Part shown: positions 2,512 through 50,298 of the stretch, one piece after another
Position numbering within the stretch: position 1 is the stretch's first letter
How the letters are laid out: the number at the start of each line of letters is the position of its first letter
Assembly (NCBI GenBank): GCA_016757515.1
Contig: JAERIN010000007.1
Span: 1 to 51,200, forward strand
Reading direction: 5' to 3'
DNA: 51,200 bases
From: Alphaproteobacteria bacterium
Lineage (GTDB): Bacteria; Pseudomonadota; Alphaproteobacteria; Micavibrionales; Micavibrionaceae
Notes under the pieces: model-generated
What the model saw: the letters and a program-made list of their open reading frames with translations, nothing else
Databases searched by the model: none
What the model was told of the DNA's origin: nothing
Translations under genes and position numbers: made by a program

Positions 2512-2681
2512 TCAGGGGCCTCCTTGTCACACCTCGGCACACGCCGGGATGGTAATATTGGCCTTTTTTGGTCTTGTCTTCAAGGGCCGCGCCCAGGATG
2601 TCGCGCAGGGGGGCGCCGTTCGTGCTGCACCATCGCGGCCATGTTGCGCCAGCTGGGCCAGTGGGGCATAGTATTGCCCCT

Positions 2682-3386: not shown

Positions 3387-3402
3387 CGTCTGTCCGGGCA
3401 AT

Positions 3403-4552: not shown

Positions 4553-4560
4553 GAGCGCCT

Positions 4561-4632
4561 ATCGTAGCCTAAGGAGCGCCCTGGGCCAAGGTGCTTGTTG
4601 CCAAGCGGCTGCGGGGGCGTGTAGGTAGCCCC
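4561..4632. promoter_or_regulatory. Divergent pair of leaderless-type promoters (response regulator / metF)
   Basis: Minus strand: -35 TTGGCC (4584-4589), 17-nt spacer, -10 TACGAT (4561-4566), then 8 nt to the ATG at 4552. Plus strand: -35 TTGCCA (4598-4603), 18-nt spacer, -10 TAGGTA (4622-4627), then 5 nt to the ATG at 4633. Neither start codon has a Shine-Dalgarno sequence. The two promoters lie back to back in an 80-bp gap. Confidence 0.6.
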
Positions 4633-5433: not shown

Positions 5434-5459
5434 CACGCACCCGCGCCCCCCACTACAAT
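5430..5459 (+). promoter_or_regulatory. Sigma70-type promoter for the lytic transglycosylase gene
   Basis: A perfect -35 TTGACA (5430-5435), an 18-nt spacer and a strong -10 TACAAT (5454-5459). The -35 hexamer contains the TGA stop codon of metF. The resulting leader of about 50 nt carries a GGGAGG ribosome-binding site (5504-5509), 6 nt before the ATG at 5516. Confidence 0.75.
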
Positions 5460-5515
5460 GGGGGTGTAGTAGAAGTAAGAGTCCCGAAAAGGGGCCTGCA
5501 TGAGGGAGGTGTGGG

Positions 5516-6706
5516 ATGGGTTTCTCAAAAGATTTTCGTGCGGCTGGCGGTTCCAGCGCTCTTGTTGGGCCAGACGATGTCATGGGCGCCCCAAAAGACA
5601 GAAGACGGGAACCAAGTGAGGCTTATATCTTTGCAATTATATCAGAAATAATTCGGGCCGATCAAGACAGCGCAACTTCTTTTATACAGGACGCCTTCAC
5701 CTACCTCTTTGACCTAGAGAACGGGGTGCGCGGACCGGAGGGGTTTGGACTCGGCGAAGGCGGTGTCCAGGGTTGGCTGCGCGACCTGACGGGAACCTTT
5801 AACCGCACATTTGGAACGAATTTTGACCAAAACGCCCTGGGCGGCGTGTATGCAGAATGGAAGAAGATAGCAGAACCGGAATTAAATGCGAGCAAAGATG
5901 CCGTTAAACAGAAAATACTTGCAACAATTGACCGCGAGATGGCGGGACAATCTCCCAAAGCAATAGCTAGGGCAAAAAATGACATATTAAGTATAGTTAA
6001 AGTTGAAAGCAATTTCAGGCCAACGGCCCGACCTATAGACCCTAAAACGGGCGAAAGGTTGAGTAGTGCCTATGGTATAGGGCAGTTTATTAAAGGCACA
6101 TGGCAGGAAGTTATGCCGGGCGTGTCTCTTGAGGCGCGCGCGGACGTGGCCACGTCTACAGTAGGCCTTCTGAAACTCAGGCAACAGAATATAAATCACT
6201 TGCGCAGCGCCGGTGTGCATAATCCGGATGTGGTGGATGTCTATCTGGCACACTTTATGGGGGCCGGTACAGCTGGACAGTTTTTGAGAAGACCAGATAA
6301 CGCTATAGCCGCCGATTGCGTGAGCCAGAGAGCTAGACTGGCAAATGATTGGGTTTTTTATGATAAAAAAACACGTCGCCCCTATAAAGTTGGTGAGGTA
6401 AAAGCAAACTTCGCCAAGAAACTGAACGTAGACTGGGATATAGGCGCTAAGTCGGACCCAGCACCCGCAGCAGAGGCCGCAGCACCCGCGGCGGAGTCCG
6501 CGGCCCCTGCGGAGGCTGAAGCGGCTGCGACTCCATCCCAACCAATAAAAGTTGACCTGGGCGCTCTTGGGAAGCCAGAGCCCGGCGGCCTTGCGCCCAC
6601 ATTTGCAGATGTTCTAAACGCAAAGGACCCCATAAAGGTAGAGGTCACCTTTACCCCCGGCGTTCTTGACGCAAAACCTGCCGCCGGCCCACACCTGAAC
6701 GCCTAA
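5516..6706 (+). CDS. Lytic transglycosylase (SLT-like) with low-complexity tail
   Basis: 396 residues. The central part (about 150-270) is an SLT-type domain: IVKVESNF carries the likely catalytic E164, SSAYGIGQFIKGTW follows, and VYLAHFMGAGTAGQFL matches the second half of the fold as seen in phage-tail and secretion-linked transglycosylases. These cleave peptidoglycan with 1,6-anhydro ends. There is no signal peptide. Residues about 310-345 are Ala/Pro/Glu-rich and look like a linker. Much of the gene (5.6-6.45 kb) is AT-rich compared with its neighbours, suggesting transfer. No phage or secretion genes lie next to it. Confidence 0.75.
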   Translation: MGFSKDFRAAGGSSALVGPDDVMGAPKDRRREPSEAYIFAIISEIIRADQDSATSFIQDAFTYLFDLENGVRGPEGFGLGEGGVQGWLRDLTGTFNRTFGTNFDQNALGGVYAEWKKIAEPELNASKDAVKQKILATIDREMAGQSPKAIARAKNDILSIVKVESNFRPTARPIDPKTGERLSSAYGIGQFIKGTWQEVMPGVSLEARADVATSTVGLLKLRQQNINHLRSAGVHNPDVVDVYLAHFMGAGTAGQFLRRPDNAIAADCVSQRARLANDWVFYDKKTRRPYKVGEVKANFAKKLNVDWDIGAKSDPAPAAEAAAPAAESAAPAEAEAAATPSQPIKVDLGALGKPEPGGLAPTFADVLNAKDPIKVEVTFTPGVLDAKPAAGPHLNA

Positions 6707-6748
6707 CCCCCCTATCCCTATCCCAAAACTTAAGGTAGAGTGTGGCGC

Positions 6749-7534
6749 ATGGCGAGCGTGGCACAAGATATGGGCACGGCGGCGGGCGCGGCGGTGCGGC
6801 ACCTGGAGCGGGGGGGCGGCCTGCCGCGCCTGGCGTACCGCTACACGCCGCCGCGCAATCAAAACCTCGCCACGGCGGTGTTCCTTTCGGGCTACGCCTC
6901 GGACATGGCGGGGGCGAAGGCCACGCACCTGGAGCAGGCCTGCGCGCAGCGGGGGCAGGGGTTCCTCAGGTTTGACTACTCCGGGACCGGCCTATCGGGC
7001 GGGCGATTCGCGGACGGGACGCTGGGCGCGTGGCTCGCGGACGCGCGGGCCGTGGTGGAGCACGCGACGGAGGGGAGGCCGCTGACCCTCATCGGTTCCT
7101 CCATGGGAGGCTGGGTGGCGCTGCTTTTGGCGTTGTCAGAGCCACGCGTGCGGGCCGTGGTGACCATCGCCGCCGCGCCGGACTTTTCGCAGTGGGGGGT
7201 CCTGGACAAGCTGGACGCCCCGCGGAAGGCGGCGCTGGACAAGGACGGAAAGTGCACCTTCATGGGCAACACATATACAAAGGCCCTGTTGGACGAAGCG
7301 CGGGGGCACATGCTTCTGGAGCGCACGCACGACCTGGCTACGCCCATCACGATGTTCCAGGGGCGGGCGGATGCCGTGGTGCCGTGGCGCACCGCAGAAA
7401 AAATCCGCCGGGCCTTTCCAAAGGCCGCGCCGCGGCTCATCCTGATTGAGGACGGGGACCACAGGCTCTCGCGCGAAGCGGACCTTCTTATGATAGACCG
7501 GCAGGTGGCCAAGGCGTCCGCTCTTGCGTCTTGA
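6749..7534 (+). CDS. Alpha/beta hydrolase (ABHD10/thioesterase-like)
   Basis: 261 residues. The nucleophile elbow is GSSMGG with S118; the acid is in GRADAVVPW and the histidine in EDGDHRLS, giving a full Ser-Asp-His triad. LSGYASDM, then GFLRFDYSGTGLSGG, match the oxyanion region of the family related to mitochondrial ABHD10 acyl-protein thioesterase. The substrate is unknown. I chose the ATG at 6749 over the GTG at 6740 because TAGAGT (6736-6741) ends 7 nt before it, as in other leaderless-looking genes here. Confidence 0.85.
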   Translation: MASVAQDMGTAAGAAVRHLERGGGLPRLAYRYTPPRNQNLATAVFLSGYASDMAGAKATHLEQACAQRGQGFLRFDYSGTGLSGGRFADGTLGAWLADARAVVEHATEGRPLTLIGSSMGGWVALLLALSEPRVRAVVTIAAAPDFSQWGVLDKLDAPRKAALDKDGKCTFMGNTYTKALLDEARGHMLLERTHDLATPITMFQGRADAVVPWRTAEKIRRAFPKAAPRLILIEDGDHRLSREADLLMIDRQVAKASALAS

Positions 7535-7560
7535 CCGGGCGCGGGCCGGGCGGCTAAGTT
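7531..7560 (+). promoter_or_regulatory. Leaderless-type promoter for the zapA operon
   Basis: TTGACC (7531-7536), an 18-nt spacer and TAAGTT (7555-7560), then 6 nt to the ATG at 7567. The -35 hexamer overlaps the TGA stop of the hydrolase gene, as also seen after metF. Confidence 0.55.
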
Positions 7561-7566
7561 GTCCAC

Positions 7567-7809
7567 ATGGATGGTGATGCCGCGCTGGTTGAGGCTGTAG
7601 AGGCCGTGCGGGGTGCTGTGGCGGCGCTGGAGGGCGCAACGGCGCACGCGCAGGGGGCCATAAAGGGCACACAGAGAGATATGTTTGGGGGGCCAGCGGT
7701 GGTCCCCGGCCAGGCCGCTTCGGCGGATGCCCGGGCAGAGGCCGTGGCGGCGCTGGACCGTGCGATACAGGGTATTGAGGGCGTTCTGGGCGAGGACACA
7801 CAGGCATGA
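7567..7809 (+). CDS. Small helical protein encoded upstream of zapA
   Basis: 80 residues, Ala-rich and probably all helical or coiled-coil, with no motif I recognise. Its TGA overlaps the ATG of zapA, so the two are coupled. In alphaproteobacteria a small coiled-coil gene often sits just before zapA, so a division-linked partner is possible, but that rests on position alone. Confidence 0.65.
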   Translation: MDGDAALVEAVEAVRGAVAALEGATAHAQGAIKGTQRDMFGGPAVVPGQAASADARAEAVAALDRAIQGIEGVLGEDTQA

Positions 7810-8153
7810 CCGCGCTGAACCTGACCATAAACGGGCGGACCTACGCCGTCTCATGCCCAAAGGGGCAGGAGGGGTCAGTGGGGGCGCTGGCTGAAGAGGT
7901 GGACGCCCTGGTGCGGGAGATTGTGGGCTCCGGCGCGGCGTCCGGGGAGGTGCAACCTCTTGTTTTGGCCGCGCTTATGCTGGCGGAGGAGGCCAGAAAG
8001 AGCCGGGAGGATGCAGCGCAGCTGCGGGCGCAGCACGCCGCCACTGCTCTCGCGCAGGAGGGGCCCAGCGCGGCCCAGATGGCTGCTGCGAAGGCCCTGG
8101 CCGACATCGCGGGGCAGATACACTCTGTGGCGGGCCGTCTCCGGGCTGTCTAG
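7806..8153 (+). CDS. zapA: Cell division protein ZapA
   Basis: 115 residues. The N-terminal INGRTYAVSCPKGQEG and the following LAEEVDALV match the ZapA head domain; PLVLAALMLAEEARKS and the C-terminal helices form the coiled coil. ZapA crosslinks FtsZ filaments at the division ring. It is second in a two-gene operon and ends 16 bp before the 3' end of the convergent kinase gene, so its usual alphaproteobacterial neighbours (6S RNA and a formyl-THF cyclo-ligase) are absent. Confidence 0.85.
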   Translation: MTALNLTINGRTYAVSCPKGQEGSVGALAEEVDALVREIVGSGAASGEVQPLVLAALMLAEEARKSREDAAQLRAQHAATALAQEGPSAAQMAAAKALADIAGQIHSVAGRLRAV

Positions 8154-10841: not shown

Positions 10842-12080
10842 ATGGCAAGTGGGTCCCGCGCGGCCTCAACACAGGAAATGATTGACGCTGCCGTTAGCGT
10901 TTCCTTGGAGGCCAATCACATCTTCCTAGCGGCTCTTAAGGCCATCGAGGCCACGCGCAACGTGGATTCTGGTGTCAACGCCATCGCGGGCGCGGTGGAG
11001 GAGATGACCGCCACCATAGGGACCATCACGGACAACACCCAAAGCGCACTGGACTCTTCTGAGCAGACGCGAGAGGCCAGCGTCAGCGGTGGGGCGGTCG
11101 CCCGGGAAGCCATAGAGGCTATGGGCTCCATCCACGCCACGGTGGCCCAGACTGCAGGAGAGGCAGATCGCCTGTCTGAGTCTTGCAAACAAATGGAAGG
11201 GATTATCTCCCGCATCCAAAACATCGCGGAACAAACCAATCTCCTGGCCCTGAACGCCACCATAGAGGCCGCCCGCGCAGGAGAGGCCGGGCGGGGCTTT
11301 GCCGTTGTGGCCAGCGAGGTGAAGGGCCTGTCCAACGAAACCAGCCGGGCCACACAGGAAATTGGGGATATAATCCGTGAGTTTGTAGCCGCGATCCAGG
11401 ACATAGCCGCCTCGATGCAGGCCGTTAACCGCTCTGTGGAGAGCGGGCGCAAGGTGAGCCAAGAGGTGGGCGCGCGCATGGAGGAGATAGAGGGATATGC
11501 CGGACAGGTTACCACCCGTATGCACGACATCGCAGGGGCACTGAAGGAGCAGAACCAGACCTCCACCGAGATGGCACGGGCCTGCGCCTCTATCATGGAG
11601 ACCTCCCGCGTTAACAGGGCGGGGACTGAGGAGAACGTCAAAGGCTTCCGCCTTCTGGGGGACAAAATTTCGCGTTTGATGGCTGTCCTTTCTCAGGGCG
11701 CGGCCATGACGGCAGGGGTTCTTACACGTCTGGCAAAATACGACCACGCGGTGTGGCGGCGCAAGTTGGCCGACAGCCTTGTCAGTGGAGCAGCTTTGGA
11801 CCCGGCGGAACTGAAGGACCACACGCAATGCCGCCTAGGAAAGTGGTACACCGGGCAGGGGCAAGCTGAGTGTGGAGGTTTGTCGGCCTACCAGGCCCTG
11901 GAGGCCCCTCACGCTCAGATTCACAGGCTGGGCCTTGATGCCATGGCTCTGTACGCTCAGGGAAACAGGGTCCAAGCCTTGGAAAAGCTGGACGCGATGG
12001 AGCCCGTTTCTGAGGAAGTTGTGCGCTTGCTGACCGAGATTGGTGAAAGCCTGCCCAGCGCTAGCGAAAGAAACGAATAA
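10842..12080 (+). CDS. Soluble chemoreceptor with C-terminal CZB zinc domain
   Basis: 412 residues without a transmembrane segment, so cytoplasmic. The MCP signalling hairpin is clear: EQTNLLALNATIEAARAGE followed by GRGFAVVASEVK at the tip that contacts CheA and CheW. The C-terminal part (HAVWRRKL, then LKDHTQCRLGKWY, and a later PHAQIHRLG) is a chemoreceptor zinc-binding (CZB) domain with its His/Cys ligands; such domains sense zinc or oxidants such as HOCl. The start is the ATG at 10842, with AGGAGGGGG 12 nt upstream. No other che genes are present in the window. Confidence 0.88.
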   Translation: MASGSRAASTQEMIDAAVSVSLEANHIFLAALKAIEATRNVDSGVNAIAGAVEEMTATIGTITDNTQSALDSSEQTREASVSGGAVAREAIEAMGSIHATVAQTAGEADRLSESCKQMEGIISRIQNIAEQTNLLALNATIEAARAGEAGRGFAVVASEVKGLSNETSRATQEIGDIIREFVAAIQDIAASMQAVNRSVESGRKVSQEVGARMEEIEGYAGQVTTRMHDIAGALKEQNQTSTEMARACASIMETSRVNRAGTEENVKGFRLLGDKISRLMAVLSQGAAMTAGVLTRLAKYDHAVWRRKLADSLVSGAALDPAELKDHTQCRLGKWYTGQGQAECGGLSAYQALEAPHAQIHRLGLDAMALYAQGNRVQALEKLDAMEPVSEEVVRLLTEIGESLPSASERNE

Positions 12081-12083
12081 TTC

Positions 12084-12112
12084 TTGACATACGGCCCAAA
12101 TAGGCATAGGCT
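12084..12112 (+). promoter_or_regulatory. Candidate promoter upstream of a small conserved-looking gene
   Basis: A perfect -35 TTGACA (12084-12089), a 17-nt spacer and a -10-like TAGGCT (12107-12112). It would make a leader of about 30 nt for the gene at 12149. Confidence 0.5.
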
Positions 12113-12148
12113 TCATCCGTATCTACGCAGAATGGGGGGACTTCCACC

Positions 12149-12439
12149 ATGCTGGAGATTCGTGCAGCCGCCTCTGCGCCTTTTGTTGCTCCCGATTGGG
12201 AGGTGTCCGTGTCCGCCGTGGCGGTGGAGCCCTGCGGACTGGACCCCTTGGGCTTCCGCGCTGTGTTCCGGCAGGGCGAGCGGGTGTTTTATGTCGGTGC
12301 CTCCCTATTGCCCATGCGTGCAGCGCGCCTGGAGCGTGCTGGCTACATCGCCTCTCGGACTCAGGAAGCCATAGACCTTCTAGAAGTGCGGCTAGGCCAT
12401 GCTCTGCCCCTCGCTGTGGGATGGGGAGAGGACACTTAA
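12149..12439 (+). CDS. Hypothetical protein, 96 residues
   Basis: I do not recognise this protein. It has no signal peptide or membrane segment, and codon use matches its neighbours. A promoter with a perfect -35 lies upstream, and a G-rich ribosome-binding stretch precedes the ATG. It sits between a chemoreceptor gene and a TadZ/CpaE-like gene, with its own promoter-like signals on both sides, so context gives little help. Confidence 0.6.
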   Translation: MLEIRAAASAPFVAPDWEVSVSAVAVEPCGLDPLGFRAVFRQGERVFYVGASLLPMRAARLERAGYIASRTQEAIDLLEVRLGHALPLAVGWGEDT

Positions 12440-39247: not shown

Positions 39248-39276
39248 TTGAAAACGGGCCATGCGTGGGGTAGCGT
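39248..39276 (+). promoter_or_regulatory. Leaderless-type promoter at the head of the polysaccharide cluster
   Basis: TTGAAA (39248-39253), a 17-nt spacer and TAGCGT (39271-39276), then 8 nt to the GTG at 39285. Confidence 0.55.
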
Positions 39277-39284
39277 GCCCGCCC

Positions 39285-40475
39285 GTGCACATCCTTCTCA
39301 CGCATGGCCTCTACGCGCCGCAGGTCTATGGCGGGTCGGAGCGATCTCTGCAGCACCTGGCCGAGGCGCTGGCCGCCCTGGGGCGCAGGGTCAGCGTGGT
39401 GGTGCAGGGCCCACCGCGCCTACCCGAGCGGGAGGCGATGAACGGCGTGGGAGTCGCGCGCATTCGGCAGGGCTTTCCTTGGGGCCTGCCTTCACCGCAG
39501 GGGCTGTCGTTCACCAGAAGGTTTGCGCGCCGGGTCCTTGGGCCTTGGAGACCCGACCTCACGGCGGCCTATCTGGAGCGCATCGCGGCCCTGCGCCCCG
39601 ATATCGTGAACACCAATTTCGGCGGCGACCTGGGGCGCCTGTGGGCTGGGGTACGGGCCCTGGGCATCCCGGTCGTGCACACCCTGCGCACGCACAAACT
39701 CCTGTGCCTGCGGGGCAACATGGCCCGCGATGGGGGCCCCTGCCCCCGGCCCTGCCCGGCGTGCGTGGCGGGCTGTGCGGCGTGGCGGGAGGCTGGGGCA
39801 CAGCACCTGTCCGGAGTGATTGGCATCAGCCGCTATATCCTGGAGGCGCACAAGGCCGCAGGCTGGGCCCCCGGTGCGCCTATGCAGGTTATTCCCAACG
39901 CCGTGCCCGCCGTGCTCGCGCCAACGCCTAGGCCCCCACCGGCGGTGCCGCTGCGCCTGGGCTACCTGGGCCGCCTGATACCGGAAAAGGGGGCCGGGCG
40001 CCTTCTGGAGGCGGCCCTGGGCCTAGGCCCCCGTGTGACTGTGGCCATAGCGGGCCAGGGCCCCCGGGACTATGTGGCCCACCTCACCCGCCGCTACGCC
40101 CGGCCCGACGTGTGGTTTGCGGGCTTCCAAGACCCCGGCGCGTTCCTGGCCCAGGTGGACGTTTTGGCCATGCCCTCCCTGTTTCCCGAGCCCTTCGGGC
40201 GCGGGGCCATAGAGGCGTTTGCCCATGGCGTGCCGGTCCTGGCCGCGCGCACGGGGGGCCTGCCCGAGGTCGTGGACGAGTCCACGGGGTGGCTCTTTGA
40301 CCCCTACGACCCTGCGGACCTTGCGCGGTGCATCGCGGACATCCTGGACACGGGGCCGGACGCCTGGCGCGCACGGCAGGGTGCGTGCCTCGCCGCCGCG
40401 CAGCGCTATAGCCCTGAGCGCGTGGCGCGGGCAACGCTGGATTTTTATGAAGCCGTGCTGCGGGGGGACATATAG
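39285..40475 (+). CDS. Glycosyltransferase family 4
   Basis: 396 residues. The N-terminal HILLTHGLYAPQVYGGSER is the acceptor-side start of a GT-B fold, and the C-terminal PSLFPEPFGRGAIEAFAHG with the E-x7-E pattern binds the nucleotide sugar. It transfers a sugar to a growing surface glycan. A Cys-rich loop (CPRPCPACVAGC, near residue 150) is unusual for GT4 and common to a clade that may bind a metal. The GTG start is chosen over the ATG at 39261 because the first beta strand begins there and a promoter ends 8 nt upstream. Confidence 0.87.
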   Translation: MHILLTHGLYAPQVYGGSERSLQHLAEALAALGRRVSVVVQGPPRLPEREAMNGVGVARIRQGFPWGLPSPQGLSFTRRFARRVLGPWRPDLTAAYLERIAALRPDIVNTNFGGDLGRLWAGVRALGIPVVHTLRTHKLLCLRGNMARDGGPCPRPCPACVAGCAAWREAGAQHLSGVIGISRYILEAHKAAGWAPGAPMQVIPNAVPAVLAPTPRPPPAVPLRLGYLGRLIPEKGAGRLLEAALGLGPRVTVAIAGQGPRDYVAHLTRRYARPDVWFAGFQDPGAFLAQVDVLAMPSLFPEPFGRGAIEAFAHGVPVLAARTGGLPEVVDESTGWLFDPYDPADLARCIADILDTGPDAWRARQGACLAAAQRYSPERVARATLDFYEAVLRGDI

Positions 40476-41288
40476 ATGCGCTTTCTCACCCCCGCCCAGC
40501 GCAAGCGCCTCCTTTGGGCCTATAGGCTCTGCCCCGCCTCCCCATGGTACCGGGCCGCGCGAGCCCGGCTGTGCGCCGCCCGGCCCCTGGTCAGCATCCT
40601 TGTGCCCACCTTCAACCGCGCCGACATGATCGGGCCCGCCGTGGAGTCCCTCCTGGCCCAGTCCTGGCGGCACATAGAGGTCCTGGTCATAGACGATGGG
40701 AGCACGGACGAGACCCCCGCCGTTGTGGAGGGCCTCGCCCGCCGGGACGAACGCGTGCGCCCCTTGCGCCTGCCCGCGAACGTGGGCACCTACGCCGCCC
40801 TCAACCACGGCCTGGCCGCCGCACAGGGGCAATTCTTCACCACCCACGGCTCCGACGATCGCGCCCACCGACGGCGCGTGGAGGTGCACCTGTTGCCCTT
40901 CTTCGCCGCGCCCGCGCCCGTGGCCACCGCGACCGACTACATCCGCGCGCCCTCTGACCGGGCCTGGGCCGACCGCCGCCGCTGCCTGTGCCTCATGATC
41001 GACCGCGCGCGGATGCTGGAGGCCGTAGGGGGATATGACCCCGTCCGCAGGGGCGGGGACTTTGAACTCTATGAGCGCTTGAAGGTCGCCTTTGGCCCCC
41101 GCGCCGTCACGCACATCCCCCGCGTCCTGTACTACGCCCTGGCCCACGCCGGGAGCCTAACCAGCGACTCCGACATCGCCGCCGGGCACCTGTCTGCCGA
41201 GCGGCAGGCGTACATAGAGCACTTCCGCGCCTGGCATGCAGCAGAGCTGGCCGCCGGGCGGTTGCCCCACCGGCCGCTTCGTGAATAA
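40476..41288 (+). CDS. Glycosyltransferase family 2
   Basis: 270 residues. VSILVPTFNRADMIGPAV starts the GT-A fold; VLVIDDGSTDET binds the nucleotide, and THGSDDRAHRRR stands where the DxD metal motif should be. Its ATG directly follows the stop of the GT4 gene, so they are co-translated. The sugar is unknown. Confidence 0.88.
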   Translation: MRFLTPAQRKRLLWAYRLCPASPWYRAARARLCAARPLVSILVPTFNRADMIGPAVESLLAQSWRHIEVLVIDDGSTDETPAVVEGLARRDERVRPLRLPANVGTYAALNHGLAAAQGQFFTTHGSDDRAHRRRVEVHLLPFFAAPAPVATATDYIRAPSDRAWADRRRCLCLMIDRARMLEAVGGYDPVRRGGDFELYERLKVAFGPRAVTHIPRVLYYALAHAGSLTSDSDIAAGHLSAERQAYIEHFRAWHAAELAAGRLPHRPLRE

Positions 41289-41330: not shown

Positions 41331-42695
41331 ATGCACAAGGGCGCACAATTACAGGTGGTGGAGGGGGGCGCGTGCGACCCCTACGCCGCCCTGAAGGCCA
41401 AGGTAGAGACGCAGCAGATCACCATCGGGGTCATCGGCCTGGGCTACGTCGGCCTGCCCCTGTCCATCGCGGCGGTGCGCGGGGGCGTGTCCGTCTTGGG
41501 CTTTGACATCGCCAAATCCCGCGTGGACATGCTCAACCAGGGCGGATCGTTCCTAAAAACCATCGGCGCGGAGGCCGTGCAGGGTATGGTGGACAGCGGG
41601 CGGTTTGAGGCCACGGCCACCATGGCCCGCCTGTCGGAGCCCGATATCCTGATTATTTGTGTCCCCACGCCCCTGTCGCGCAACAGGGAACCGGACCTGA
41701 CCCACGTGCGCACCACGGCCGAGACCATCGCGCAGCACCTCCGCCCGGGGCAGTTGGTGTGCCTGGAGTCCACAACCTACCCCGGCACCACGGACGAGGT
41801 CATCCGGACCATACTGGAGCGCAGCGGCCTGCGCTCGGGCGAGGATTTTTTCCTGGCCTACTCCCCCGAGCGGGAGGACCCCGGCAACCTGCGCTTTTCC
41901 ACCGGCACCATCCCCAAGGTCGTGGGCGGCCAGGGGGAGAGAGCCACGGAGCTGGCCACCGCCGTCTATAGCCTGTTCATAGACAAGGTCGTGCCCGCGT
42001 CCAGCGAGCGCGTGGCCGAGGCCGTGAAGCTGACCGAAAACATCTTCCGCTCCGTCAACATCGCCCTTGTGAACGAACTAAAGGTCATATTCGGCCAGAT
42101 GGGCATTGACGTCTGGGAGGTCATTGAGGCCGCGAAGACCAAGCCCTTTGGCTACATGCCCTTCTACCCCGGCCCGGGCCTGGGCGGGCACTGCATCCCC
42201 GTGGATCCCTTCTACCTGACCTGGAAGGCGCGGGAGTACGGCATCTCCACCCGGTTCATAGAGCTGGCCGGGGAGATCAACCGCGCCATGCCCGCCCACG
42301 TGGCGCAGGCCACCGCCGATGCCCTGAACCGCCACCTCGCCAGGGCCCTGAACGGCGCGCGCGTCCTGGTCGTCGGCGTGGCGTACAAGCGGGACATAGA
42401 CGACTGGCGCGAGAGCCCGGCGCTGGACGTCATCCGGCACCTGCGCGCGGCGCAGGCGCGGGTGGACTACCACGACCCCCATATACCGGTGCTGGACGCC
42501 GAGGCCCTGGGCGGAAAGATGCAGGGCGTGGCCTGGGACCTGGCGGCCCTGGCGGCCTATGACGCGGCCGTCGTGTGCACGGATCACAGCGATATAGATT
42601 GGCAGGCCCTGGCCAACGCCGTGCCCCTGGTGATAGACACCCGCAACGCCCTGGCCGGGGTGGAGGCCGCGCGGGGCGTGGTGGTGAAGGCTTAG
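41331..42695 (+). CDS. wbpA: UDP-N-acetylglucosamine 6-dehydrogenase, WbpA-like
   Basis: 454 residues. NAD motif IGVIGLGYVGLPLS, the VPTPL loop, YSPEREDPG, and the catalytic cysteine in GPGLGGHCIPVDPFYL are all present; VVGVAYKRDIDDWRESPA is the C-terminal UDP-binding part. The YSPEREDPG and HCIPVDPFY forms are those of the WbpA/WbpO group, not UDP-glucose dehydrogenase. It oxidises UDP-GlcNAc to the uronic acid, the first step of UDP-ManNAc3NAcA synthesis. All four later enzymes are encoded downstream. Confidence 0.88.
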   Translation: MHKGAQLQVVEGGACDPYAALKAKVETQQITIGVIGLGYVGLPLSIAAVRGGVSVLGFDIAKSRVDMLNQGGSFLKTIGAEAVQGMVDSGRFEATATMARLSEPDILIICVPTPLSRNREPDLTHVRTTAETIAQHLRPGQLVCLESTTYPGTTDEVIRTILERSGLRSGEDFFLAYSPEREDPGNLRFSTGTIPKVVGGQGERATELATAVYSLFIDKVVPASSERVAEAVKLTENIFRSVNIALVNELKVIFGQMGIDVWEVIEAAKTKPFGYMPFYPGPGLGGHCIPVDPFYLTWKAREYGISTRFIELAGEINRAMPAHVAQATADALNRHLARALNGARVLVVGVAYKRDIDDWRESPALDVIRHLRAAQARVDYHDPHIPVLDAEALGGKMQGVAWDLAALAAYDAAVVCTDHSDIDWQALANAVPLVIDTRNALAGVEAARGVVVKA

Positions 42696-42706
42696 GGGGC
42701 AGCATC

Positions 42707-44413
42707 ATGATGAGCGCTGTACTGGGCATGATTAGAAAAAGGACGAATGAATCTCAAGCTCCCGCACAACCCGTTAGGCCAAGTGACATAAATTCCTCCT
42801 CCCGATCCATTTGCACCTCTGTAGACGTTATTACGGAAGCCTGGAAGCTCATAAAAGCCGCCCCCAGTAGAACGACCCATGCTTGGGTTCATATGCCCCT
42901 TTTTTTGCTGACCAGAAAGCCAAAAAAGGCTTTCATGTTGCAGTTTATATCTTCCACGGATATCCTTCGTTCCTCTGGGCCCGAGGAAGACGAGACTATA
43001 TTTACAGTGCGATGCCGTTTCCTGGATGCGGACGGGAACGCAATACCTCTTCAAAGTGGAGAGGGCCACTTAGACTTGCGTACTTTTTCCGGATCCGAGG
43101 AGCGAAAAGCAACATTTCGTCTACCAATTGTGGAAGGAGCAGAAAGCATACAGATCTCATTCTATGTGCCAAACGCCTTCTGTGGAGAGACGCGCTTTAA
43201 GAAATTTCATATCATATGCGACCAAGAGGTGGGAACCCTCTCGGGCGCACGCATTGCGTGGGCCCCGATAGACTTCTCCAAGACGTGGCATCAAAAAGGT
43301 AGAAAGGTTTTTGTAAAGAGTTTTTATGGAACCCATTGGGCGGAGATGCCTAAGGGATGGAGATTGAAGAAGGTTCACCCAGCCGCATTGAAGATAGCAG
43401 AATCCTATCTATTCAATAACATGGAGTGCACGACCTTCGGTCTGTTAAGAGACAATCCGTGGGATTTTGATTTTTCAAAGTCCAGAAAACCTGGCAATTC
43501 TCTTCTACTCAGCTTCTCCGCAGGCGCAGACTCGACAGCGGCTCTGGCTCTTCTTCCAAAAGACACGATAAAATTTTTGTCAAAAAGGGGAAACGATCAC
43601 ATATATCTCTTCAATGGCAAGAGGTACATCTACCCTAAAAAGAGCGCGCTCGATTCTTGTATAGATTCTTACGATGACGTTGTGATCGTAGAACAAACAT
43701 TCGATGAAATTCCTATAGGAATAGGGCTAACTGTTGGAATCAAGGACCCTACAGGCTATGCGGTTTATGGGGTTCTGATGGCTGATTATTTCAATGCAGG
43801 AGCTCTGGCATTTGGGTCTGTGATGGAGCAGTGTTTCATGCGAAGCGGGAACAGGTTCTCAGATTCCATAAAGCACGAGAGATCGGGCATGAATAGAATA
43901 AAGAAGATTCTTTCTTATGCTGGCCTAAATTTTACTATGCCAACAGCGGGGCTATCAGAAGTTGTCACAGATAGGATATCGCTAAGATATCCATCTATTT
44001 CTTGTGGAAATACAGATGAAAATGGAGTGCCGTGCGGTACATGCTTCAAATGTTTTCGGAAAATGCGATTGATGTCATCGGATGTTCCAGAGCCAAGGCA
44101 ATCTGTTATAGATATACTTAAGAAATATCCACTAAAGAGCGCGACAAGTGTGATATACGCATGCCAAAAATCTGGATGGTCCTGCCCAGAGATCGAGAGG
44201 TACTTGGGCGCGGATCTCGGCTTTCTGGAAAGGTATTTTGGAAAGTCAATGGACTATTTTGTTCCAGAACAATATCGTGCCCACGTCAAGGGTGCCTTAG
44301 CTGAGCACGGGATAGACCCGATGTCCGAGGAAGACGAGCAGCGTCTGCGTCAAGTGGCCAGGATATTCCTTCCGGAGGAATTTTCCCTTGATTTGGCGAA
44401 TGTGCAGGAGTAA
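42707..44413 (+). CDS. PP-loop ATPase with QueC-like zinc site, unknown role
   Basis: 568 residues. About 265 N-terminal residues look beta-rich and unassigned. Then comes an ATP-pyrophosphatase PP-loop, LLSFSAGADSTAAL (269-276), and near the C-terminus C433-x9-C443-G-T-C446-F-K-C449-FRK, which matches the QueC zinc site (CxxCxxC after an earlier Cys). PP-loop enzymes activate carboxylates or amides by adenylation. In Pseudomonas the sugar amidotransferase WbpG, another PP-loop protein, works beside the same five enzymes encoded here. I infer a sugar modification, possibly amidation or amidine formation. The gene is AT-rich, so likely acquired. Confidence 0.75.
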   Translation: MMSAVLGMIRKRTNESQAPAQPVRPSDINSSSRSICTSVDVITEAWKLIKAAPSRTTHAWVHMPLFLLTRKPKKAFMLQFISSTDILRSSGPEEDETIFTVRCRFLDADGNAIPLQSGEGHLDLRTFSGSEERKATFRLPIVEGAESIQISFYVPNAFCGETRFKKFHIICDQEVGTLSGARIAWAPIDFSKTWHQKGRKVFVKSFYGTHWAEMPKGWRLKKVHPAALKIAESYLFNNMECTTFGLLRDNPWDFDFSKSRKPGNSLLLSFSAGADSTAALALLPKDTIKFLSKRGNDHIYLFNGKRYIYPKKSALDSCIDSYDDVVIVEQTFDEIPIGIGLTVGIKDPTGYAVYGVLMADYFNAGALAFGSVMEQCFMRSGNRFSDSIKHERSGMNRIKKILSYAGLNFTMPTAGLSEVVTDRISLRYPSISCGNTDENGVPCGTCFKCFRKMRLMSSDVPEPRQSVIDILKKYPLKSATSVIYACQKSGWSCPEIERYLGADLGFLERYFGKSMDYFVPEQYRAHVKGALAEHGIDPMSEEDEQRLRQVARIFLPEEFSLDLANVQE

Positions 44414-44469: not shown

Positions 44470-45432
44470 GTGGCACAAGTGGCGGTCATAGGCTGTGGGC
44501 ACTGGGGCAAGAACCTGGTGCGCAACTTTGCGGGGCTTGGTGCGCTCACGGCCGTGTGCGATGCGGACGCCGCGCAGGCGGAGCGTTTGGGCGCGGAGCA
44601 CGGCGCTCCCGCGCTCTCCTGGGATGCTGTCTTGGGCGATATAGCCATAAACGCCGTGGCCATTGCGGCCCCGGCGCCCCTGCACCACCCCCTGGGCAGG
44701 CAGGCTTTGAGGGCCGGAAAACACGTCTTCATGGAAAAGCCCCTGGCCCTGACCGCCGGCCAGGCGCAGGACCTCATCGCCGTGTCCCGCGAAAAGGGCC
44801 GCACGCTGATGGTCGGCCACCTGCTCCACTATCACCCCGCCTTTGTCGCCCTTAAGGGGCTTGTGGCGGCGGGCCGGCTGGGCACTTTGCGCTACGTCCA
44901 CTCCCGCCGCCTAAGCACGGGGCAGGTGAGGGCCGAGGAAGATGTGTTGTGGAGTTTTGCCCCGCATGATCTGTCCATGGTCCTGGCCCTTATGGGCGCG
45001 GAACCGGGGGACGTGAAGGCCCGTGGCGCGGCCTATATCACGCCGGGCATCGCGGACTATGCCGATGTACGCATGACATTTCCGGGGGGCGCCGTGGCCA
45101 AGGTCTCGGTGTCTTGGCTCTACCCGGAAAAGGAACACCGCCTGGTCGTGGTCGGGGACGGGGGCATGGCCGTGTTTGACGATACCCGTCCGCTGGAGCA
45201 CAAACTCGCCCTCTACGCCCACCGGGTGGAGGAGAGGGCGGGCCGACCGATTCTGCACAAGGCCGTGCCCGAGTACATCGCCCTGGAGGCGGCGGAGCCT
45301 CTCCGCGCAGAGTGCGCGCACTTTCTTCATTGCGTGGACACGGGACAGGCCCCCGTGACAGATGGGCAAGAGGGCCTGCGCGTTGTGCGCCTTTTGGGGC
45401 GCGCACAGGCGTCTATGGAAAGCGGGGTCTAG
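44470..45432 (+). CDS. wbpB: Gfo/Idh/MocA oxidoreductase, WbpB-like 3-dehydrogenase
   Basis: 320 residues starting at GTG with AAAGG upstream. NAD motif VAVIGCGHWGKNLVRNF, then the EKPLAL motif with the catalytic lysine, GHLLHYHPAF, and WSFAPHDLSM are the family features. In the inferred pathway it oxidises the 3-hydroxyl of UDP-GlcNAcA. It is GC-rich, unlike the AT-rich genes around it, so the cluster is a mosaic. Confidence 0.85.
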   Translation: MAQVAVIGCGHWGKNLVRNFAGLGALTAVCDADAAQAERLGAEHGAPALSWDAVLGDIAINAVAIAAPAPLHHPLGRQALRAGKHVFMEKPLALTAGQAQDLIAVSREKGRTLMVGHLLHYHPAFVALKGLVAAGRLGTLRYVHSRRLSTGQVRAEEDVLWSFAPHDLSMVLALMGAEPGDVKARGAAYITPGIADYADVRMTFPGGAVAKVSVSWLYPEKEHRLVVVGDGGMAVFDDTRPLEHKLALYAHRVEERAGRPILHKAVPEYIALEAAEPLRAECAHFLHCVDTGQAPVTDGQEGLRVVRLLGRAQASMESGV

Positions 45433-45435
45433 GCC

Positions 45436-46329
45436 ATGAGAACGATCGATTCCTGTATGCTTGCCGAGGCGTTAGGGCTTAAGACGCAAGGACTGCGTTT
45501 TTGTGGCTTGGGCGTATCGTGCGCAGAAGACGGGACGGACCTCTTATCCTTTCTGGGTGACGCGAAGTTTGCCGCACAGATCAATGATAACCCTCGGATT
45601 CGGGGGGTTTTCGTGGAGAGAACGCATGCCGATCTCGTCAGCGATGACAAGGAGAAGGTGATCGTCGAGGACCCGAAATGGTTTTTTTTTAAGCTCCTAG
45701 ACCATCTGGCAAAAACCAAACAAAAGAACCCTAACTCCATATCAAGAAACGCTCGCATACACGACTCCGTAACCATCGCTCAGAAGGGCGTTGTAATAGA
45801 GGACGACGTCTATATAGAGCCTGGAGTCGTTGTACTTGAAGACGTAACAATACGAAAGGGGGCCGTGGTGCGCGCCGGTGCCGTCCTCGGGGTAGATGGC
45901 TTTGAGCACAAGAAGACCTCGCGCGGCATCGTGAGCGTAACGCATGACGGTTGCGTCGTTGTTTGCAAAGAAGCCGAGGTTGGTCCCCTGAACGCCATCA
46001 TAAAGGGGTTTAGCTACCGGAGCACCATCATCGGGGAACAAACCAAATTGGACGCCCATATCCACTACGCGCACGGCGTACAATCTGGGCAACGCTGTCT
46101 CATTGCTGCCTCGACCATTCTTGCTGGGCACGTTTCTATAGGGGATGATGTTTGGATAGGACCTGGGTCTGTGGTGTCCAATCGGATCTCTATAGGCGAC
46201 GGTGCCTTTATAACCTTGGGATCTGTGGTATCTCGTGATGTTCCCCCAGGCCAGAGAGTTACGGGCAATTTTGCTATCCCGCATGCTGTCTTCATGGCAG
46301 ACCTCAAGAAAAAGGCTCAGAGCGCATGA
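45436..46329 (+). CDS. LpxD-like hexapeptide acyltransferase, probable WbpD-role enzyme
   Basis: 297 residues. The N-terminal domain (1-100) resembles the uridine-binding domain of LpxD, and the rest is a left-handed beta helix with hexapeptide repeats (IEDDVYIEPGVVVLEDV and so on). HIHYAHGVQSG keeps the LpxD catalytic histidine context. The position between dehydrogenase and aminotransferase genes fits N-acetylation of the new 3-amino group. It is larger than known WbpD proteins (about 190 residues), so it may add a different acyl group. Its ATG is 3 bp after the wbpB stop. Confidence 0.75.
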   Translation: MRTIDSCMLAEALGLKTQGLRFCGLGVSCAEDGTDLLSFLGDAKFAAQINDNPRIRGVFVERTHADLVSDDKEKVIVEDPKWFFFKLLDHLAKTKQKNPNSISRNARIHDSVTIAQKGVVIEDDVYIEPGVVVLEDVTIRKGAVVRAGAVLGVDGFEHKKTSRGIVSVTHDGCVVVCKEAEVGPLNAIIKGFSYRSTIIGEQTKLDAHIHYAHGVQSGQRCLIAASTILAGHVSIGDDVWIGPGSVVSNRISIGDGAFITLGSVVSRDVPPGQRVTGNFAIPHAVFMADLKKKAQSA

Positions 46330-47447
46330 TCCCCTTTATCGATCTCCAGGCCCAGCAAGAGCGCATCGCGGACAAGCTCCGGGCGCGCATCGCTGCGGTT
46401 CTGGAACACGGGGCCTATATCATGGGGCCCGAGGTTGGGGAGCTGGAGGAGCGTCTCGCGGACTCCTGCGGCGCCAAGCACTGCGTCACCTGCTCCAACG
46501 GCACGGACGCGCTCCTCCTGCCCCTGCGGGCCAAGGGCATCGGCCCGGGCGACGCCGTATTTGTGCCCAGCTTTACCTTCGTGGCCACGGCCGAGGTTGT
46601 CTCCGCCCTCGGCGCTACGCCCCTCTTCGTGGATGTCCTCCCCGACACCTTCAATATGGGCGCACAGAGCCTTGAAGCCGCCATTGCCTTTGCCCGCACA
46701 CGGGGCCTGACCCCGCGCGCCGTCATCCCCGTGGACTTATTCGGGCAGCCCGCCGACTATGACGCCATTGCGGCGGTGGCGCAGCAGAATGGCCTATGGG
46801 TCCTGGCCGACTCCGCGCAGGGCTTCGGGGCTACCTATAAGGGCCGCCGCACCGGCACCCTGGGCCTGGCCACCGCAACCAGCTTCTTTCCAGCAAAGCC
46901 CCTGGGCTGCTACGGCGACGGGGGGGCCATCTTCACCGACGACGACGCCCTGGCCGCCGTGCTGCGCAGCCTGCGCGTCCACGGCAAGGGCGCGGACAAG
47001 TACGACAACGTGCGCATCGGGATGAACGCCCGCCTGGACACCCTCCAGGCCGCCATCCTTCTGGAAAAGCTCGCGATATTCGAAGACGAGATAGAGCGCC
47101 GCAACGCCGTGGCGGCCCGCTACAGCGCGGCCCTCGCGGGCACAGTGCACGTCCCCGCCGTGATGGACAACGCCGTGTCCACCTGGGCCCAATACACCAT
47201 CCGCGTCCCCGCCCAGCGGCGCGATGCCATGGCCGCACACCTCAAAGCCCAGGGCGTGCCCACCGCCGTCTACTACCCCACGCCGCTCCACCGCCAGACG
47301 GCCTATCGCGATGCCCCCGTCATGCCCGGCGGCCTGCCCGTGTCCGAGGCCCTGGCGCAGGAGGTTCTGAGCCTCCCCATGGGGCCGTATCTGAAATCAA
47401 GAGAGACAAAAATTATATTTAATGCCATTCACTCATTTAATAAATAA
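46326..47447 (+). CDS. wbpE: DegT/DnrJ/EryC1 sugar aminotransferase, WbpE-like
   Basis: 373 residues. The PLP lysine is K191 in TSFFPAKPLGCYGDGG, the DegT signature; MIPFIDLQAQ opens the protein, and HGKGADKYDNVRIGMNARLDTLQAA is the dimer region. It would transaminate the 3-keto sugar made by the WbpB-like enzyme. It overlaps the acyltransferase gene by 4 bp. Confidence 0.9.
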   Translation: MIPFIDLQAQQERIADKLRARIAAVLEHGAYIMGPEVGELEERLADSCGAKHCVTCSNGTDALLLPLRAKGIGPGDAVFVPSFTFVATAEVVSALGATPLFVDVLPDTFNMGAQSLEAAIAFARTRGLTPRAVIPVDLFGQPADYDAIAAVAQQNGLWVLADSAQGFGATYKGRRTGTLGLATATSFFPAKPLGCYGDGGAIFTDDDALAAVLRSLRVHGKGADKYDNVRIGMNARLDTLQAAILLEKLAIFEDEIERRNAVAARYSAALAGTVHVPAVMDNAVSTWAQYTIRVPAQRRDAMAAHLKAQGVPTAVYYPTPLHRQTAYRDAPVMPGGLPVSEALAQEVLSLPMGPYLKSRETKIIFNAIHSFNK

Positions 47448-47476: not shown

Positions 47477-49222
47477 ATGCGAATAGTTTCAGTAGTCCCC
47501 AATTCTGCTGTGCGGGATATACGCGTTATGAAGCAGGCTCGTTCGTTGCAAGAAGCAGGGCACGATATTAGCATTATTGGAGTCAAAGAGGCTGGGGCAG
47601 AAAGTTATAGATCAATTACAAAAGAAGGAATATATATATACAGGGCTCCGGTAAAAGAGACAGCATCAAAAATCTATGCAAGAATTCTATTCTTTATTAA
47701 TGCGTCCATCTTATCTATTTTATCTCTAATTTTTAGTTCGATGGCGTTTGTGTGTTGGCCCAACAATCAAGATCCAACAGATCTTATTTTATTTATAATA
47801 AAATTGTTATTTATATTTATTATTTTGTTTTTTATATACCACAAGGGGGTAAAAATTATCAAAGCACAAACTATCAGAAAATGGGAAAAATATATTAATT
47901 TATATTGTAGGAGGAGGGCTATGCTCATCGAGATTTTACCTCTTGTAAAGCAATTAAGCCCAGATCTGATTTATTGTCATGAGTGTATCGCTCTTGAAGC
48001 ATGCATGAGCGCCAAAAAAGATCTTCTCGTACCTCTTGTTTATGATGCACATGAATTCTATGAAGATATTTCTGGGGATGATGCAAAATTAGTGTCAAGA
48101 ATATTTAAGGATATACATAATAGATATATCAGAAAGATAGACGCTTTTGTTACGGTGGGTCAGGTGGCCCTTGATATGTACAAAAATGCTTATCCAGAAG
48201 TTATAAAAAATCATATGATATTACCCAACTCTGTTGAGCCTAAATATCTCAGAAAATATGATGGAAGACTGCACAAGAAAGCCGGTATCTCTTTATATAA
48301 AAAAATACTCTTATACCATGGGGGCGTCTCAAAGCACAGAAAAGTTGATCAGGTTATAAACGCATCTAAATACCTTACTGAGGATTGGCATGTGGTTGTC
48401 ATGGGAATGGGCGCAGATTTGCCGTATTTTAAAGATATTGCGGCATCCATAAATAATGAACATTCCAGAAGTGAAGCAGAGAAAATCATTTTAGATATAT
48501 ATGAGAAAGATTTTCAGCATGCAAAAAAAGAAAATTTGAAAAATATACAAAGTTATAGTAATCATTTTATAAAAGATCGCGAATATATGCGTCCTCTCAT
48601 CTCTTCAGAGATAGAAAAATACAAGGAGACAATCAGAGAAAAAATGATTTTAAATAGAAGGCGCAAATTAAAGGAGCAAATTACTGAAAAATTAATAGAA
48701 ATAAACTCCCACAGATCCGTTATAGGAGACCTGATCGAGAGCGCCCGATCTGAAGATTGGGCGCTGGCCTCTAGACTCGCGCTGGAAGACATTATACAAA
48801 TACAAAACATAGATGTTTCCAAAAGAGTCTCTATAATAGATCCTGTTCCATACGATGACCTATTGGACTGGGCCCAAGGTGCGCATATAGGTATTATACC
48901 CTACCCTATTACAAACGCCAACCATTGGGGCGCAGCCCCAAATAAACTTTGGGAATTTCCAGCCGCAGGAGTTCCTGTATTAGTCACGCCTTCCCTGGAA
49001 ATGTCTTCAACTATCCAAGAGTATGGTATAGGCTGGATGATTTCAGCAGACCCAACGGGAGAGGAGATTGCTCACAAAGTATTGTCTATCCATGAAAGCG
49101 AGATAACATTAGCAAAAGAAGCGTGCAAAAAGTTTATTATAGAAAGCAACTGGACCGTCCATGTGGCGCCCTGGATTGCTTTATTGGAAAAATTGTATGG
49201 CATATATAGGGAACAGAATTAG
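47477..49222 (+). CDS. Glycosyltransferase with a long helical insertion
   Basis: 581 residues, much longer than typical GT4 enzymes (about 370-400). The N-terminal VPNSAVRDIRVMKQARSL, YDAHEFYED and the C-terminal GIIPYP, then APNKLWEFPAAGVPVL, define a GT-B fold. Two hydrophobic segments (about 70-95 and 103-125) are inserted early. About 120 charged helical residues (340-460) are inserted between VVMGMGADLPYF and VSIIDPVPYDDL. The gene is AT-rich. Acceptor and donor are unknown. Confidence 0.8.
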   Translation: MRIVSVVPNSAVRDIRVMKQARSLQEAGHDISIIGVKEAGAESYRSITKEGIYIYRAPVKETASKIYARILFFINASILSILSLIFSSMAFVCWPNNQDPTDLILFIIKLLFIFIILFFIYHKGVKIIKAQTIRKWEKYINLYCRRRAMLIEILPLVKQLSPDLIYCHECIALEACMSAKKDLLVPLVYDAHEFYEDISGDDAKLVSRIFKDIHNRYIRKIDAFVTVGQVALDMYKNAYPEVIKNHMILPNSVEPKYLRKYDGRLHKKAGISLYKKILLYHGGVSKHRKVDQVINASKYLTEDWHVVVMGMGADLPYFKDIAASINNEHSRSEAEKIILDIYEKDFQHAKKENLKNIQSYSNHFIKDREYMRPLISSEIEKYKETIREKMILNRRRKLKEQITEKLIEINSHRSVIGDLIESARSEDWALASRLALEDIIQIQNIDVSKRVSIIDPVPYDDLLDWAQGAHIGIIPYPITNANHWGAAPNKLWEFPAAGVPVLVTPSLEMSSTIQEYGIGWMISADPTGEEIAHKVLSIHESEITLAKEACKKFIIESNWTVHVAPWIALLEKLYGIYREQN

Positions 49223-49224
49223 TC

Positions 49225-50298
49225 ATGAAAGAGAAAATTAAAATACTTACCTTTGTTGGGGCGAGGCCGCAATTTATTAAGGCCGCAACGGTTAGTCGAG
49301 AAATAAAAAAATGGCCCCTTATTCGCGAAGTTCTCGTTCACTCCGGGCAGCACTACGATCACGATATGAGTGACGTTTTTTTCTCCGAGCTCAACATGCA
49401 AAACCCAGAATATAATCTTGGCATTGGTTCCATGAGTCATGGGGCCGGAACCGGTCGCATGATTGAAAAGTCAGAGGAAGTTATTCATAAAGAGAGGCCA
49501 GACGGAATATTTGTATATGGTGATACAAATACGACTATAGCAGCGGCACTGGCGGCGGTTAAAATGCATGTGCCGATATTTCATGTAGAGGCCGGACTGC
49601 GTATTTATGATATGCATTCTCCAGAAGAGGTAAATCGCCGTGTTGTTGATCATGTTTCGCAGGTTCTTTTTGCGCCCTCCAGAAACGCAGTCACAAATTT
49701 AGAGGCGGAGGGTATTGTAAAGAATGTCTTCTGTGTAGGGGATGTTATGTATGACTCTGTTAATTTTTTTAAAGATAGTATAAAAGAATTAGGAAGCGCG
49801 TATTTTCCAGGACAGAGGTTCATACTTCTAACAATACATAGACAAGAAAATACAACCAACGAAGAAGATCTTATAAAGATATTTTCTGCTTTATCTAAAA
49901 TAAACATTCCTGTTCTTTTTCCTTTACATCCCAGGACACGAAAATTTCTATCAAATTCAAACGTAAAGTTGCCTGATAAGTGTAAAGTCATCAATCCGAT
50001 AGGATATCTGGATATTTTGCGGGAAGTGTGCGCGTGCGCTATGGTAGCAACAGATTCTGGTGGCCTTCAGAAAGAAGCTTTTTTTATGGGAAGGCGAGCA
50101 ATTGTTCTCCAAGACCAGAGCGGGTGGCCAGAGCTTGAAGAGTGTGGCGCAAATATAGTATGCGGAACACGGACAGAAAAAATCTTGTCAGCGTATGAAA
50201 GAATATCTGAAGCGCCCAATCCTCCGGAAATATATCCGTATGGGAATGGTACCGCTTCTAAACAAATATGCGATAGGATAACCAAGTATTTCTCGTGA
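49225..50298 (+). CDS. wbpI: UDP-N-acetylglucosamine 2-epimerase family (WbpI-like)
   Basis: 357 residues. FVGARPQFIKAATVS, HSGQHYDHDMS, VYGDTNTTIAAALAA, HVEAGLR and TDSGGLQKEAFF are diagnostic for the family. WbpI converts the 2,3-diacetamido uronic acid from gluco to manno form; a WecB role on UDP-GlcNAc is the alternative, but the four preceding pathway genes favour WbpI. AT-rich; starts 2 bp after the glycosyltransferase stop. Confidence 0.88.
   Translation: MKEKIKILTFVGARPQFIKAATVSREIKKWPLIREVLVHSGQHYDHDMSDVFFSELNMQNPEYNLGIGSMSHGAGTGRMIEKSEEVIHKERPDGIFVYGDTNTTIAAALAAVKMHVPIFHVEAGLRIYDMHSPEEVNRRVVDHVSQVLFAPSRNAVTNLEAEGIVKNVFCVGDVMYDSVNFFKDSIKELGSAYFPGQRFILLTIHRQENTTNEEDLIKIFSALSKINIPVLFPLHPRTRKFLSNSNVKLPDKCKVINPIGYLDILREVCACAMVATDSGGLQKEAFFMGRRAIVLQDQSGWPELEECGANIVCGTRTEKILSAYERISEAPNPPEIYPYGNGTASKQICDRITKYFS

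Follow-up and report, generated by a model that had tools for sequence, protein, structure and literature searches.

The AT-rich gene that lies between the wbpA-like and wbpB-like genes of the window (the whole stretch of 51,200 nucleotides analysed here) encodes a member of the Pfam family DUF6395 (PF19932), and we consider it very likely that this family consists of QueC-fold enzymes serving glycans. By analogy with QueC, the family could be a QueC-type uronamide synthase that takes its nitrogen from ammonia, matching WbpS in function without being homologous to it; we give this proposal about an even chance, and we infer its substrate, nitrogen donor, and product.

Neither QueC-fold enzymes nor uronamide synthases are new in themselves. 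What the literature searched does not describe is a QueC-fold branch linked to uronic-acid glycans across archaea, bacteria, and phages. Our literature search found no paper naming DUF6395, for which Pfam gives the function as unknown, and the analysis provides a testable role for this hitherto uncharacterized family. So far, QueC-type enzymes have been described in the base modification of tRNA and DNA and in defence against phages, and a surface-sugar branch, if true, would be another field for them. It would also represent a second, unrelated route to uronamides besides WbpS. Moreover, as phages carry DUF6395 too, they may modify acidic surface sugars.

The protein and its predicted fold

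The gene starts 11 bp past the end of wbpA on the same strand, with AGGGGG just before its ATG. Its composition (GC 0.46, GC3 0.47, vs. 0.67/0.90 for wbpA and 0.67/0.80 for wbpB) agrees with the sequence-only reading, which had described an AT-rich gene between these two flanks. The profile search suggested by that reading matched the window protein to DUF6395 with 66.2 bits (E 4.8e-18, residues 398-549; curated cut-off of 25 bits). This was the sole family in the Pfam search, which found no asparagine-synthase or glutaminase domain. The Pfam QueC model PF06508 (cut-off 22 bits) gave no match to the window protein and weak scores of 15.9-20.0 bits, below the cut-off, to some phage relatives. 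No match was found in NCBIfam (including TIGR03573), PADLOC, or PHROGs, and the sequence search of solved chains gave no convincing one. Searches of Pfam, the plasmid collection, and the fetched loci found nothing related to the first 190 residues; the low-confidence model of this region was beta-rich, and its fold matches, to jelly-roll and carbohydrate-binding domains, were weak.

We modelled the protein using its relatives as alignment. Residues from about 190 to 565 were confident, and the core alone reached a pLDDT of 88 and a pTM of 0.89. Among the VIA-align matches listed for the core, QatC was on top (Z 11.2, 4.4 A, 241 aligned), followed by QueC (Z 10.1, 3.6 A, 184 aligned; and Z 9.9) and Cap9 (Z 9.4, 2.9 A, 154 aligned), with other PP-loop enzymes at Z 8.0 or less. 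The whole protein gave the same order of QatC, QueC, and Cap9. The WbpG-family structure 8WEX was absent among the matches listed, which excludes nothing. Foldseek placed a phage QueC on top when run against viral models (BFVD; E 9.1e-5) and gave no match at E 0.001 or better against the PDB; the fold claims rest on VIA-align and on the viral models. Profile alignment of DUF6395 with QueC was collinear through the PP-loop and the zinc site, but weak (9.8% probability), and with WbpG there was none. In this confident model, QueC, QatC, and Cap9 are the predicted closest folds of the catalytic domain, above other PP-loop enzymes.

The PP-loop and the zinc site at C433, C443, C446, and C449, both pointed out from the sequence alone, were present and conserved across alignments of 61-62 sequences, whose other rows were about 19-43% identical to the window protein. 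S271, G273, D275, S276, A278, G370, E418, C433, C446, K448, C449, and K452 were invariant, and C443 nearly so. Given this conservation across such divergent sequences, the PP-loop and the zinc motif are more than chance. The scan for relatives used either the PP-loop pattern or the zinc pattern, and circularity was checked by cross-retention: the zinc motif was kept in 41/42 relatives matching the PP-loop pattern only, and the PP-loop in 6/6 relatives matching the zinc pattern only. Loss of the PP-loop in relatives, which the sequence-only reading had named as a point against itself, was therefore not what we found. The zinc motif (CxnCxxCxxC) was downstream of the PP-loop in 62/63 sequences, with the QueC spacing of C-x8-C-x2-C-x2-C in 46/62.

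The survey by Libby et al. 2026 (PMC13329287) maps the PF06508 superfamily into canonical QueC, QatC, Cap9, LarE, a purine-salvage group, a group with WbpG, and GMP synthase; the parts of it consulted make no mention of DUF6395. DUF6395 uses a QueC-like scaffold and is a member of none of the groups described there. Fold (Z ~10), zinc order, and zinc spacing in most members support the proposed likeness to QueC (PF06508 cluster 1), with the family now refined to DUF6395. However, the QueC substrate motifs YxQxHxxE, VPxRN, and YPDC were found in 0/63 DUF6395 sequences vs. 6/6 QueC controls. DUF6395 proteins are also longer, and their neighbours, in the window and in the Pfam tallies of other loci, are sugar and glycan genes rather than queD/queE. 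The missing motifs, together with the lack of a PF06508 match in the host genome at E 0.001, ruled out a canonical queC.

QatC, from the qatABCD anti-phage system, is similar in size, with extensions at both ends, and gave the best fold match among those listed, whereas its CGxCxxRR zinc variant was seen in 0/63 DUF6395 sequences and the sugar operon is a different context. The PADLOC defence models found no family match for the four DUF6395 members tested, and a defence gene identity was rejected on that basis. Cap9 (type IV CBASS) shares the QueC-type fold but keeps a 7-deazaguanine-binding YxDC motif that is absent in DUF6395, and its gene context is another one.

WbpG/WbuX (NASAT, TIGR03573; PF06508 cluster 5) are likewise PP-loop zinc enzymes of O-antigen sugar operons and have a conserved tetracysteine zinc motif (PMC10607449). 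Their zinc cysteines, however, lie before the PP-loop (PMC10607449), an order found in 0/63 DUF6395 sequences; the 16 NASAT controls were chosen by this very pattern and hence are no independent control of order. WbpG/WbuX also need an N-acetyl substrate. Zinc order, no model match, and no profile alignment ruled out membership of the WbpG family, in line with the earlier claim that a different enzyme family is at work here.

The host operon and the insertion

The neighbours wbpA, wbpB, wbpE, and wecB/wbpI (Table 1) support the placement of the gene in a uronic-acid sugar operon. By the Wbp pathway, this gene set should make a 2,3-diamino-2,3-dideoxy-hexuronic acid. The GC3 of wbpA, wbpB, and wbpE is 0.80-0.90; the DUF6395 gene shares its AT-richness with the acyltransferase, the last glycosyltransferase, and wecB.

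Table 1. Coordinates of the operon genes and of the DUF6395 protein features in the window
Feature	Positions	Strand	Basis or remark
Glycosyltransferase, group 1 type	39261-40475	+	
Glycosyltransferase, family 2	40476-41288	+	
wbpA-like UDP-sugar 6-dehydrogenase (makes C6 carboxylate)	41331-42695	+	TIGR03026 over cut-off; PDB matches
DUF6395 gene, 568 aa, QueC-like PP-loop enzyme	42707-44413	+	ORF, ATG 42707 to TAA 44413
N-terminal region, residues 1-190	42707-43276	+	No detectable relative; low-confidence beta-strand model
Catalytic domain, residues 191-568	43277-44410	+	Common to all DUF6395 relatives
PP-loop S271-A-G-A-D-S276 (ATP pyrophosphatase motif)	43517-43534	+	
Zinc site C433-x9-C443-x2-C446-x2-C449	44003-44053	+	
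wbpB-like Gfo/Idh/MocA oxidoreductase (3-keto step)	44470-45432	+	Orthologues adjoin wbpA in relatives
LpxD-like left-handed beta-helix acyltransferase, wbpD position, AT-rich	45436-46329	+	
wbpE aminotransferase	46326-47447	+	WbpE structures 3nyu/3nu7, E ~1e-117
Glycosyltransferase, group 1 type, very AT-rich	47477-49222	+	
wecB/wbpI-type UDP-HexNAc 2-epimerase	49225-50298	+	TIGR00236 over cut-off

Eleven fetched loci from relatives in the same taxonomic order carry the operon genes with no DUF6395 or NASAT match. In L130, L131, L132, L133, L135, L137, and L138, wbpA is directly beside wbpB, and in most of these the pair is followed by a gene of ~190-230 aa at the wbpD position and then by wbpE. 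Judged by this comparison of sequences, the DUF6395 gene between wbpA and wbpB is a lineage-specific insertion, for which the relatives show empty sites. The scan of the host family found DUF6395 over the cut-off in no other genome of 99, and the phylum sample in 1 other of 398 genomes, with a protein 19% identical. A gene this rare, added late to a pathway that already worked, is more in keeping with a decorating than with a core step. Horizontal transfer, possibly by way of phages, is the probable origin of the gene. In the host genome we found no WbpG family match, and its strong asparagine-synthase-type enzyme is an N-acetylglutaminylglutamine amidotransferase.

Besides, the LpxD-like acyltransferase at the wbpD position has 297 aa and a GC of 0.53, and relatives carry a gene of about 190-230 aa there. 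This looks like a second replacement in the operon, possibly for a longer N-acyl group. From 47477 to 50298, the GC falls to 0.37 (last glycosyltransferase) and 0.41 (wecB) on a contig mostly at ~0.65. As the contig stops at 51200, there may be more of the cluster elsewhere.

Distribution and genomic neighbours of the family

A single-protein query of genome contigs retrieved no relatives; only the profile reached them, with 44 genome loci and 14 IMG/VR loci. The carriers include many Poseidoniales archaea, Halobacillus, Lysinibacillus, Microbulbifer, Arthrobacter, Helicobacter valdiviensis, Rhodobacteraceae, a myxococcote, a Dehalococcoidia bin, and Streptosporangiaceae; another copy is on a Priestia plasmid. 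The viral loci include genuine phages, with terminase, portal, and DNA polymerase genes nearby. In the tree, which was rooted at midpoint only, the window protein fell closest to the tandem pair of phage copies in L010 (support 100/98), and five further phage proteins joined them at the next level (97/89).

Two weak Pfam matches were discarded, one with two internal stop codons (G100) and one PhaR-like by its sequence (G792), and the G731 group (L004, 19% identity), a more remote PP-loop protein, was omitted from the main alignment. An apparent fusion in Arthrobacter (L048_7, L048 4397-6820) was also rejected: its N-terminal part looks like a transposase read-through, possibly from an insertion sequence, with DUF6395 in frame behind. 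The DUF6395 copy of L015, labelled Gammaproteobacteria, is nearly identical to that of the Poseidoniales locus L014; L015 is probably a mis-binned archaeal contig and hence adds no independent lineage to the counts.

A UDP-sugar 6-dehydrogenase was found within 10 kb of 19/33 DUF6395 copies, in 14/20 genomes. As a control in the same genomes, 6/129 GT2 genes away from DUF6395 were near such a dehydrogenase (Fisher p 3e-11), a comparison in which the rows are not independent, many related Poseidoniales being counted repeatedly, and the GT2 genes include housekeeping ones. The unrelated linked carriers are Halobacillus, Microbulbifer, a Firmicutes bin, Arthrobacter, a myxococcote, and the window. 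No 6-dehydrogenase was seen within 10 kb of the Helicobacter, Rhodobacteraceae, and Streptosporangiaceae copies, and no dehydrogenase near the phage copies. In Poseidoniales and a myxococcote, a WbpP/WbgU/TviC-like 4-epimerase gene is directly upstream (within ~11 bp, often overlapping), and the 6-dehydrogenase tested at a DUF6395 locus is related to TviB among others. By known pathways, a set of 4-epimerase and 6-dehydrogenase makes UDP-GlcNAcA and UDP-GalNAcA.

At the cellular DUF6395 loci we saw no WbpB relatives, and WbpE relatives in few. The survey of wbpA/B/D/E/I neighbours called for by the sequence-only reading thus upheld the linkage to the UDP-sugar 6-dehydrogenase, while WbpB and WbpE relatives were mostly missing. 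Because they are mostly absent, the shared substrate feature is the carboxylate, and the common DUF6395 substrate is probably a hexuronic acid. Homologues found mainly outside polysaccharide loci would have spoken against the sequence-only reading; they lie mainly in polysaccharide loci or near phage glycosylation genes.

Other arrangements were seen around the family. DUF6395 is fused behind GT2 domains in archaea. In phage L012, an ORF of 1051 aa (4797-7952) directly after a LicD-like gene has DUF6395 ahead of glycosyltransferase-like sequence. The phage contig L010 (regions 4329-6725 and 811-4182) carries its two tandem DUF6395 genes, then an alanine-dehydrogenase-like gene, and also a long terminase ORF with an apparent intein inside. 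In phage L011, a Gfo/Idh/MocA oxidoreductase weakly similar to the window wbpB is just downstream of DUF6395.

Proposed reaction and alternatives

QueC converts a carboxylate to an amide and then to a nitrile with ATP and ammonia (PMC13329287). Given this amide chemistry and a hexuronic-carboxylate gene common to most DUF6395 loci, a C6 uronamide is the simplest reading. In the proposed mechanism, WbpA would oxidise C6 of the UDP-HexNAc to a carboxylate, and the DUF6395 enzyme would bind ATP at its PP-loop and activate this carboxylate as an acyl-adenylate, releasing PPi. Ammonia would then attack the acyl-adenylate to give the uronamide and AMP, with a stand-alone enzyme and no glutaminase. 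Once placed between wbpA and wbpB, the gene would have given the pathway an optional decoration. In Porphyromonas, the uronamide step on a Wbp-pathway sugar is carried out by WbpS, an asparagine-synthase-type enzyme (PMC7468200). WbpS/WbqG would share with DUF6395 the reaction (uronic acid to uronamide) and share the Wbp operon context, but they belong to another PP-loop family and have a glutaminase domain, which DUF6395 lacks.

The sequence-only reading had left two options, a WbpG-type or a carboxylate-amidating step. Amidation of the carboxylate fits better, and the WbpG-type step is less supported, since most loci are without WbpB/WbpE relatives and share the 6-dehydrogenase. Still, DUF6395 might do the job of WbpG by convergence, turning the C3 N-acetyl of a diamino-uronic acid into an acetamidino group: the window operon (wbpA, wbpB, wbpE, wecB/wbpI) makes the sugar type that WbpG modifies, the host genome lacks a WbpG family match of its own, and both are zinc PP-loop enzymes. 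With the zinc cysteines on opposite sides of the PP-loop, no profile alignment between the two, and the neighbours of most other loci, we regard this as rather improbable. We also judge it unlikely, if somewhat less so, that DUF6395 uses acyl-adenylate chemistry to link the uronic carboxylate not to ammonia but to another amine, such as an amino acid, an amino sugar, or a protein N-terminus. QatC and Cap9, both among the closest folds, act on protein N-termini; Cap9 does so by linking a carboxylate to an N-terminal glycine. Moreover, the glycosyltransferase fusions in archaea and a phage suggest that the substrate may be a polymer and not a free nucleotide sugar. In the Pfam tallies, however, no gene for an amine supplier or a carrier protein is a conserved neighbour.

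A nitrile or a thio-acid as product, by the full QueC reaction or by LarE/TtuA-like sulfur transfer, seems very unlikely. We know of no bacterial glycan with a cyano or thio uronic acid, which argues against both. The step from amide to nitrile is one that QueC itself takes (PMC13329287), and sulfur-transfer PP-loop enzymes come next in the VIA-align fold list; yet the four cysteines match the zinc pattern of QueC and not the three-cysteine cluster of LarE. The least probable reading, to which we give little credence, is that the gene has nothing to do with the sugar and is a phage or defence gene (QatC-like or with 7-deazaguanine chemistry) that landed in the operon. In favour of it, the gene is acquired and AT-rich, phage proteins are the nearest to it in the tree, and QatC is the closest fold among the matches listed. 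Against this, PADLOC found no match, both the QueC substrate motifs and the QatC CGxCxxRR are missing from all 63 sequences, and the gene is co-oriented with wbpA and close behind it. The linkage to sugar-acid genes also recurs in unrelated cellular lineages, and phage copies too are beside, or fused to, glycosylation genes.

The uronamide synthase stays our preferred reading. A broader outcome, which we likewise hold to be unlikely, would make DUF6395 a so far unrecognised glycan branch of the QueC-like enzymes, common to marine archaea, bacteria, and phages. It would decorate hexuronic acids not with a simple amide but with a conjugate (to an amine, an amino acid, or a protein) or with a nitrile, and phages and cells would be exchanging a new kind of surface-sugar chemistry.

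Finally, one neighbour of the family was seen repeatedly. Locus L040 encodes on its minus strand (10986-12329) a protein of ~447 aa with no Pfam or NCBIfam match, and relatives of this protein adjoin DUF6395 in many archaeal loci and a myxococcote. This group probably represents undescribed glycosyltransferases; one of its members, from Halobacillus (L029), contains a glycosyltransferase-28 C-terminal domain.
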